Of a stretch of 64,000 nucleotides of DNA, positions 17,973-20,040 are shown in pieces; the first letter of the stretch is position 1, and each line of letters begins with the position of its first letter. The position numbers and the translations under genes are program-made. Origin of the DNA: Candidatus Bathyarchaeota archaeon (lineage in GTDB: Archaea > Thermoproteota > Bathyarchaeia > Bathyarchaeales > Bathycorpusculaceae); NCBI GenBank assembly GCA_029881805.1, contig JAOULW010000001.1, positions 62,001-126,000 of the forward strand, read 5' to 3'. A model generated the notes under the pieces. The model ran no database searches. It saw nothing but the letters and a program-made list of their open reading frames with translations, and was not told the origin of the DNA.

Positions 17973-18806
17973 TTACAGTTTCTCTGCACTTTCCTTTAAC
18001 TTGTCAAACAATTCGGGGCGTAGGTCCTTCAAAGTAGGAACAAACGTTTCGACGGGTCCTATGTCAGCATAGTCAACTTCGCCAAACACCAAGTCTTCCT
18101 CGTCATACTTTGCCTTCGTGAGGATTTTTCCTTGAGGCCCTATGAGTCTGCTTCCTCCCCAAAACTGCAATCCATCCTCTATTCCAACAAGATTCACGTA
18201 AGCTAGAAAAGCCGAATTTTCAATTGCCCTTGCAACAGTTAATACTTCAAAGAACATTCGTCGAACTGCAGGTGATGCAGAGATACAGACTATCAATTGT
18301 GCGCCTTCTAAGCGTGCCAGACGACTTACCTCTGGGAAAAAAATGTCGTAACATGTGATTAATCCTATTTTTCCAAGCTTTGTGTCGAATGTCGCCGTTT
18401 GATATCCGGGGCGGAAATACCTTTTTTCTTCAAAAACGCTGTGGGTTGGGAGATACATCTTCCGATATTTTCCAATCAATCCTTCTGGTCCTATCAGGAC
18501 AGAGGAATTGTAAACTGTTGCATGGGTTTTTTCGCTGAGTTCCGGCATGCCAAAAACAACATGCATTTCGGTCTTTCTCGCTATTTTCTCTATGATGTTT
18601 GTTGACGGTCCAGGTATTGTTTCTGCAAATTCATATATTTGATCTCGAACAGTATAGCCAGTTAATGAAAGTTCCGGAAAGATTATTAGTTCAGCTTCGT
18701 GGTTTTTTGCGCTAGTTGTACGTCTTTCGATTTTCCTTATATTTTCTGTTTTGTTTCCTTGTTTGCAACTTATTTGTGCAAGGGCTATTTTGATTCTTTC
18801 CTTCAG
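17973..18806 (-). CDS. Nitrilase-superfamily amidohydrolase, probable glutaminase partner of NadE; CTG start
   Basis: The nitrilase triad is complete only if the frame is read from about 18806: Glu in IFPELSLTGY, Lys in GKYRKMYLP, and Cys in ITCYDIFFPE. Between the upstream stop and ATG 18566 there is no ATG, GTG or TTG, yet about 80 codons of clear nitrilase sequence (RIKIALAQISC..., the Glu motif, PGPSTNIIEKIA) lie there. A GGAGAGG sits seven bases before CTG 18804-18806, so I infer a CTG start, giving 277 residues, the normal size. The gene follows nadE with a 21-base gap. In many organisms glutamine-dependent NAD synthetase is a nitrilase domain fused to NadE; here the two appear as separate genes. 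Other amidase roles remain possible. Confidence 0.87.
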   Translation of the reverse strand: MKERIKIALAQISCKQGNKTENIRKIERRTTSAKNHEAELIIFPELSLTGYTVRDQIYEFAETIPGPSTNIIEKIARKTEMHVVFGMPELSEKTHATVYNSSVLIGPEGLIGKYRKMYLPTHSVFEEKRYFRPGYQTATFDTKLGKIGLITCYDIFFPEVSRLARLEGAQLIVCISASPAVRRMFFEVLTVARAIENSAFLAYVNLVGIEDGLQFWGGSRLIGPQGKILTKAKYDEEDLVFGEVDYADIGPVETFVPTLKDLRPELFDKLKESAEKL

Positions 18807-18827: not shown

Positions 18828-19670
18828 CTATTGGGGATTGCGCACAAGTCTGAAGTCCATCCCTATTGTTCGATATTCAAGCTTTGGGGTTAATAACATT
18901 CGCCTTTTATGTTCTGTGTAGAGCCATCGTTGCTTCAGCTTGTCCACCAGTTCCTTCTTCATGTGCACTTGTTTTGCTATATTCTCTGTCTTCATGAAGT
19001 GTTCCAGTCCATAAAGGACTAGATCGAGCTTGTCATATTTTATGCCAAGTTCTTTTTCAGCAAGTTGCCCTGGCCACAAGGCTGGTGAAGGTGGCTTTCC
19101 CACGATTTCTTTTGGGACACCAATATGTCTTGCAAGTTTTTGCACTTGTGTTTTGTACAAGTCCATTATTGGTGATATATCTGCTGCTACATCTCCCCAT
19201 TTTGTGAAATAACCCATCATGGTTTCTGATTTATCCGAGCTTCCACAAACAAGCATGTTGAGTCTATTAGCATAATAGTAAACGTAAATCATACGTGTCC
19301 GTGCCTTTATGTTGCCTTTGCAGACATTATCTGTTGAGTCAAAAATGGGTATTGATTTATAGAAAGCCTTCAAGGTTGAAGTTATGTCAATTAGTTTTGT
19401 TTTGAATCCAAACTTCTTAGCGACAAGCTTTGAATGATCAATATCGTGGACATTGTGCGTTTCTTTTTCTGGTAGCATCAAACCTAAAACTTTGTCTCCG
19501 CCTATGGCTAAAGCGCCAAGTGCGGCTGAAACAGAGCTGTCAATTCCTCCAGACAACGATACAATAATGCCTTTTGTTTCGGATTTCTCAAAGTAGTCCT
19601 TAATGAATCGTGTTACTTTACCTTCTACTTCTCTCCAATTCAAGTCTAAGACGGAAGGAACCAATCTCAA
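18828..19670 (-). CDS. nadE: NAD synthetase (NadE), ATP-dependent
   Basis: Catalyses the last step of NAD synthesis, amidation of nicotinic acid adenine dinucleotide. The ATP pyrophosphatase P-loop is SLSGGIDSSVSAALG. GSSDKSETMMGYFTKWGD and DISPIMDLYKTQV are the NaAD- and ATP-binding loops, and KPPSPALWPGQ is a late conserved segment. I start at TTG 19670 (GGAGAGG seven bases upstream), giving 280 residues, the usual length of the synthetase domain without glutaminase. The open frame extends to 19826 but that part lacks family sequence and overlaps the divergent Elf1 gene. Next in the operon is the nitrilase-like gene, which may supply ammonia from glutamine. Confidence 0.95.
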   Translation of the reverse strand: MRLVPSVLDLNWREVEGKVTRFIKDYFEKSETKGIIVSLSGGIDSSVSAALGALAIGGDKVLGLMLPEKETHNVHDIDHSKLVAKKFGFKTKLIDITSTLKAFYKSIPIFDSTDNVCKGNIKARTRMIYVYYYANRLNMLVCGSSDKSETMMGYFTKWGDVAADISPIMDLYKTQVQKLARHIGVPKEIVGKPPSPALWPGQLAEKELGIKYDKLDLVLYGLEHFMKTENIAKQVHMKKELVDKLKQRWLYTEHKRRMLLTPKLEYRTIGMDFRLVRNPQ

Positions 19671-19773
19671 AGATATACCTCTCCTTAATGTTCTATTGAC
19701 GTAGGGCAAATATTTAAGGGCAAACATAAATATTGAAACAATATATGTTTTAAGGGTATAGAAGGCCTCAGAA

Positions 19774-20040
19774 ATGGGACGAAGAAGGAGAAAAGTTGTT
19801 CGCATTCCTAAGAAACGTTTGCCCAAATTCTTCTCTTGTCCAAAATGTGGAAAAGAAACAGTCAGTGTCTCGATATTTCGAGACGAAAGACGGGCCGTCG
19901 TAGGCTGTAGCGGCTGTGGTTTGAAAGATGAATTCCAAATAAAACCCGCTCAGGGCGAGATCGACATCTATTGCATGTTTACAGACAAGACTTATGGGAG
20001 TCCTAAAGCCTCTCCTTCGCCAGAGATTGAAGGCTCTTAG
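19774..20040 (+). CDS. elf1: Elf1-like transcription elongation factor (zinc ribbon)
   Basis: A short basic N-terminus (MGRRRRKVVRIPKKRLPKFF) is followed by a zinc ribbon with CPKC (Cys22, Cys25) and CSGC (Cys45, Cys48). This is the pattern of archaeal Elf1 homologues, which bind RNA polymerase near downstream DNA during elongation. The C-terminal 25 residues are a Ser/Pro-rich tail. It is divergent from nadE (about 100 bases of AT-rich shared promoter) and is followed 14 bases later by the GGGP synthase gene, so the two form an operon. Confidence 0.88.
   Translation: MGRRRRKVVRIPKKRLPKFFSCPKCGKETVSVSIFRDERRAVVGCSGCGLKDEFQIKPAQGEIDIYCMFTDKTYGSPKASPSPEIEGS

Follow-up and report, generated by a model that had tools for sequence, protein, structure and literature searches.

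A nitrilase-superfamily (carbon–nitrogen hydrolase) gene on the minus strand of the window, the whole stretch of 64,000 nucleotides analysed here, appears to begin at a CTG codon (18804–18806), from which a frame of 277 aa runs to a TAA stop (17975–17973; whole gene 17973–18806). The CTG reading is well supported for this gene. The best explanation of the locus as a whole, and one that we regard as highly probable, is that a functional nitrilase forms the second member of a nadE–nitrilase pair, that its ancestral ATG, GTG or TTG start has changed to CTG, and that initiation there is assisted by a Shine–Dalgarno (SD) sequence.

Directly upstream on the minus strand lies an ORF for a single-domain NAD synthetase, nadE (18828–19826), whose TAG stop (18830–18828) shares the nitrilase frame and stands 21 nt 5' of the CTG. 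On this strand the TAG is followed by CCTATTT, the SD-like GGAGAGG (18820–18814), aataaat (18813–18807) and the CTG itself, and the spacing of seven bases between GGAGAGG and CTG given in the first-pass annotation is exact. It was likewise correct that no in-frame ATG, GTG or TTG occurs from the TAG to the first canonical in-frame codon, an ATG (18564–18566) that follows the CTG by 80 codons and at which the mechanical ORF list opens the gene to give a product of 197 aa. Other near-cognate codons are present in the frame, namely an ATA two codons upstream of the CTG and an ATC four and an ATA six codons downstream of it, and ATC and ATA starts do occur elsewhere in the family. Initiation at one of these is nonetheless improbable: the spacing to the SD-like site is 1 nt for the upstream ATA and ∼19–25 nt for the downstream codons, whereas the CTG is one base from ATG, has a spacing of 7 nt and stands in the column at which the orthologs start.

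Translation of the region ahead of the ATG is suggested by its divergence from orthologs, which falls mainly on third positions: across codons 2–80, mismatch against 38 orthologs (>70% identity) is 0.22, 0.19 and 0.52 at codon positions 1, 2 and 3, respectively. Judged from this pattern, the upstream part of the nitrilase frame is real coding sequence and no chance extension of the ORF. The 277-aa product matches the Pfam family CN_hydrolase (PF00795; 1.1e-56, 192.5 bits against a cut-off of 23.2) over profile positions 1–254 of 256, and aligns to the Pyrococcus abyssi nitrilase 3ivz from residue 5 over nearly its full length (E 5e-36). A Glu–Lys–Cys catalytic triad is established for the nitrilase family, and by the alignment to 3ivz it is complete here as Glu45 (18672–18674), Lys116 (18459–18461) and Cys152 (18351–18353), all on the minus strand. 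Since Glu45 lies upstream of the ATG at 18566, a start at that ATG would remove it together with the first part of the fold; the earlier claims that the catalytic Glu and some 80 nitrilase residues precede the first ATG, and that a call there would give a truncated enzyme, are therefore borne out. The gene product is predicted to be a functional nitrilase-superfamily amidohydrolase, a prediction that forms part of the joint explanation given above and shares its probability. Loss of a canonical start is a plausible look for the first disabling mutation of a gene, and the nitrilase might in principle be a fresh pseudogene that has lost its start. This is very improbable in light of a full-length frame free of stops, the intact triad, the third-position bias of the divergence and the retention of the SD-like site.

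The history of the codon can be read from related genomes. One scan of GTDB genome contigs recovered 80 nitrilase loci, mostly from Bathyarchaeia, of which 79 were readable at the start column; these carry ATG (58), TTG (5), GTG (5) or another codon (11), so that 68/79 are canonical, and among the family relatives, which are partly of the same species, 27/29 are canonical. GGAG- or GAGG-like sites precede the column in many orthologs. In most of the 11 non-canonical loci a canonical start stands a few codons off, or the open frame extends further upstream and includes one; at one locus (L015 = L098) the column holds ACG and an ATG lies two codons upstream. Besides the source genome, only one of the 79 loci has no ATG, GTG or TTG ahead of the conserved domain (L075 = L092), and here an ATC stands behind GGAGGAAG and the next canonical start is 29 codons further on. 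CTG at this column is not kept across orthologs and was found in the source genome alone among the 79 loci, with the qualification that it is known from a single assembly, that each species is represented by one assembly and that no congeneric species was among the genomes compared. Because the relatives carry ATG, GTG or TTG at the column, the ancestral start was probably canonical and the change to CTG recent. On the contig CP070683.1, a nitrilase ortholog (L064, 3001–3020) has a TAG in frame at codon 6.

Comparison with relatives thus upholds the CTG start proposed in the first-pass annotation insofar as the codon falls in the column of ortholog starts and is preceded by an SD-like site. 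The accompanying view, that a canonical start in relatives would mark the CTG as an assembly error, was too strict: canonical starts were indeed found there, yet they are not decisive, because a genuine change to CTG predicts them equally. A consensus or sequencing error, in which a miscalled C hides a true ATG (or TTG), fits the canonical codons of the relatives and the draft state of the genome (39 contigs, 2.63% estimated contamination and at least one frameshift-like gene), and its likelihood can be gauged from how often the same genome presents such starts.

The sample for this purpose comprised 1.2 Mb of the source genome (G000) and 1.2 Mb of a relative (G052), which yielded 494 non-overlapping reciprocal best pairs and 271 start sites mapped from the relative onto the source genome. 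At three of the 271 mapped sites the codon is CTG, preceded by an SD-like site and without a canonical codon nearby: the nitrilase, the ribosomal protein RpS26e (G000 C10:257129) and a YhbY-like gene (G000 C24:185974). For RpS26e the CTG occurs in the source genome only, 29 family relatives having TTG (18), ATG (8) or GTG (3); for the YhbY-like gene the only relative compared, G052, has ATG. A fourth CTG, in o637, looks internal and was rejected as a start, and several other survey matches were dropped as start cases because they reflected the frameshift in glyS, codons internal to genes, or non-coding DNA that is conserved ahead of canonical starts. Further candidates in the source-genome sample are RpoK, which has no canonical start ahead of conserved sequence, a D-aminoacyl-tRNA deacylase-like gene whose ATA corresponds to an ATG in the relative (G000 C24:192160), and a cation-exchanger-like gene in which ATT and CTG are the only early starts (G000 C16:40046).

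Only one clear premature in-frame stop was seen in ∼107,000 conserved codons when the source genome was set against full-length relatives. In a thioredoxin-like gene, a TGA replaces a conserved Trp before CxxC (G000 C24:207915–207917), as an error, a pseudogene or a readthrough site, and the glycyl-tRNA synthetase-like gene glyS shows a frameshift-like split near residue 77 (G000 C24, about 204434–204650), possibly an assembly error. Given the glyS break and the one premature TGA, the sampled genome does contain errors or pseudogenes. If ∼4% of random substitutions create a stop (our estimate), the implied error rate is near 7e-5 per base, which predicts that ∼0.1 start codons would be damaged across 494 genes, with only ∼1 in 9 of such damaged codons reading CTG. 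Three CTG starts among ∼494 compared genes, one of them in a ribosomal protein, are not explained by error at such a rate, and the reverse comparison in the same survey found no CTG start case in G052. The CTG start of the nitrilase is therefore very probably genuine, although this is an argument from rates and no substitute for reads, and an error at this codon is unlikely.

The shared frame of the nadE TAG and the nitrilase also admits a NadE–nitrilase fusion made by readthrough of the TAG, for example as pyrrolysine. Such a fusion is exceedingly improbable, since no match to pyrrolysyl-tRNA synthetase (PylS) exceeded the cut-off, the in-frame stops of the orthologs are variously TAA, TGA or TAG at varying distances, in one case (L020) abutting the ATG, and the orthologs have canonical nitrilase starts of their own.

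For a start at the CTG, one mechanism is best supported. The GGAGAGG 7 nt upstream would place the small ribosomal subunit by SD pairing, perhaps aided by ribosomes that terminate at the nadE stop (21 nt from the CTG) and reinitiate, and Met-tRNAi would decode CUG with a first-base mismatch, in which case the protein begins with Met. We infer initiation at CUG, with insertion of Met and an output below the AUG level. SD-assisted near-cognate initiation with Met-tRNAi is of a known kind, if poorly documented in archaea. Archaea use aIF1, and the regulation of infC in bacteria works through IF3. In Saccharolobus, aIF1 favours discrimination against non-canonical starts (reviewed in PMC6237735). 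Loss of aIF1 was considered as a cause of relaxed selection and discarded because the factor is present, a SUI1 protein being found in the source genome and in 83/91 family genomes searched.

Non-canonical starts also appear elsewhere in the family, where counts were taken from the best 30 matches per gene with starts assigned by alignment. In a Snf7/CdvB-like gene (L264 on contig C16 of the source genome; relatives L265–L293), the start column reads ATC (23), ATT (2), ATA (1) or ATG (3) in 29 genomes among the best matches; GCGGAGGGA-type leaders precede it in nearly all 29, and in three of the genomes with ATC a GTG or TTG lies 5–7 codons upstream. The leader of this gene, GCGGGCGGAGGGA, is nearly invariant and the DNA upstream of it also looks conserved; an RNA gene as the cause of this conservation was set aside, there being no Rfam match. 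In an HflX-like GTPase (L294 on contig C13 of the source genome; relatives L295–L323), 29 genomes among the best matches show ACG (26), ATG (2) or ACA (1), with GGAGGA ahead of the start in nearly all of them and, at two loci (L307 and L323), a stop codon immediately 5' of the ACG. In the source genome the HflX gene overlaps the 3' end of the upstream gene, which we take to be MBF1-like from reading its sequence by eye, and this overlap alone may constrain the ACG. In PurF (L324–L353), 7/30 genomes among the best matches have ATA, and in these the stretch between the upstream stop and at least +22 is free of canonical codons, while most other genomes have an ATG six codons upstream.

By alignment, these non-canonical starts would be conserved across genera, with ATC in the Snf7/CdvB-like gene, ACG in HflX and ATA in PurF, and codons conserved to this degree are, on the same evidence, not sequencing errors. 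Their use as starts is supported by sister genomes that show ATG at the same column. Because several near-cognate starts (CTG, ATC, ATA and ACG) occur in this genome and family, start selection in the group appears more permissive than annotation assumes. The broader proposition, to which we give slightly better than an even chance, is that start selection in Bathyarchaeia is relaxed in ∼1–2% of sampled genes, core genes included, with CTG, ATC, ATA or ACG behind SD sequences, some of them conserved across genera and possibly regulatory in the manner of bacterial infC. This lineage-wide pattern is of more interest than the single nitrilase case. If it is true, the archaeal apparatus of start selection (aIF1, aIF2 and initiator tRNA) would be more permissive in this group than has been assumed, and the conserved ATC and ACG starts could be regulatory. 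Since unusual start codons recur in this archaeal group, automatic callers will shorten such proteins; those that assume ATG, GTG or TTG delete the catalytic Glu of the nitrilase, and would similarly truncate RpS26e, HflX, the Snf7/CdvB-like protein and PurF in this lineage.

Precedents for such starts are bacterial. The infC gene, which encodes IF3, starts with ATT in Escherichia coli and ATC in Streptomyces, and Streptomyces sigR starts with GTC, so that non-canonical starts can be both real and regulatory (PMC5472188). The present case resembles infC and sigR in that the real start is non-canonical and of a class often misannotated by callers that assume ATG, GTG or TTG; it differs in that those starts belong to bacteria, have been demonstrated by experiment and serve regulation via IF3 (PMC5472188), whereas the nitrilase CTG is confined to one genome, is deduced from sequence and bears no sign of regulation. 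In triplets of closely related prokaryote genomes, switches to CUG are very rare and were counted in 2/61,358 ancestral AUG and 1/2,468 ancestral UUG starts (PMC5622118). The change proposed here belongs to the same single-base class, yet the apparent rate of 3/271 aligned start sites, from species that are more distant, is much higher than those counts (PMC5622118), which presumably rest on annotated starts that rarely call CTG. No report of CTG starts in archaea, or of CTG or conserved ATC or ACG starts in Bathyarchaeia, was found in the mostly open-access literature that was searched.

The position of the nitrilase next to nadE may inform its function. At 72/80 loci nadE is directly upstream on the same strand, and in 5 Asgard loci the two genes are adjacent but divergent. 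The segment 17973–19826 holds a nadE–nitrilase pair that is conserved in Bathyarchaeia and is a candidate two-subunit glutamine-dependent NAD synthetase. In it the nitrilase would probably supply ammonia to NadE, as a glutaminase or a related amidase. In Thermus thermophilus, NAD synthetase is proven to be encoded by two genes, one of them for a nitrilase-like glutaminase subunit, and archaeal NAD synthetases were thought mostly to operate without such a partner (PMC3376133), for which the pair described here is a testable candidate. As in the T. thermophilus type C enzyme, a single-domain NAD synthetase gene adjoins that of a nitrilase-like protein; unlike it (PMC3376133), the present system is archaeal, and its putative glutaminase does not stand out as nearest to the glutaminase domain of NadE. 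The best NCBIfam match of the nitrilase is the N-terminal part of PRK13981 (NAD+ synthase), at 147.9 bits against a full-length cut-off of 479, and its best PDB match is the stand-alone 3ivz, with the fused NadE 5kha at 6e-26; the nitrilase sequence does not settle between glutaminase and another amidase activity. With 3ivz and its relatives the protein shares the superfamily and the Glu–Lys–Cys triad, but those are stand-alone nitrilases, whereas the nitrilase of Bathyarchaeia is paired with nadE.
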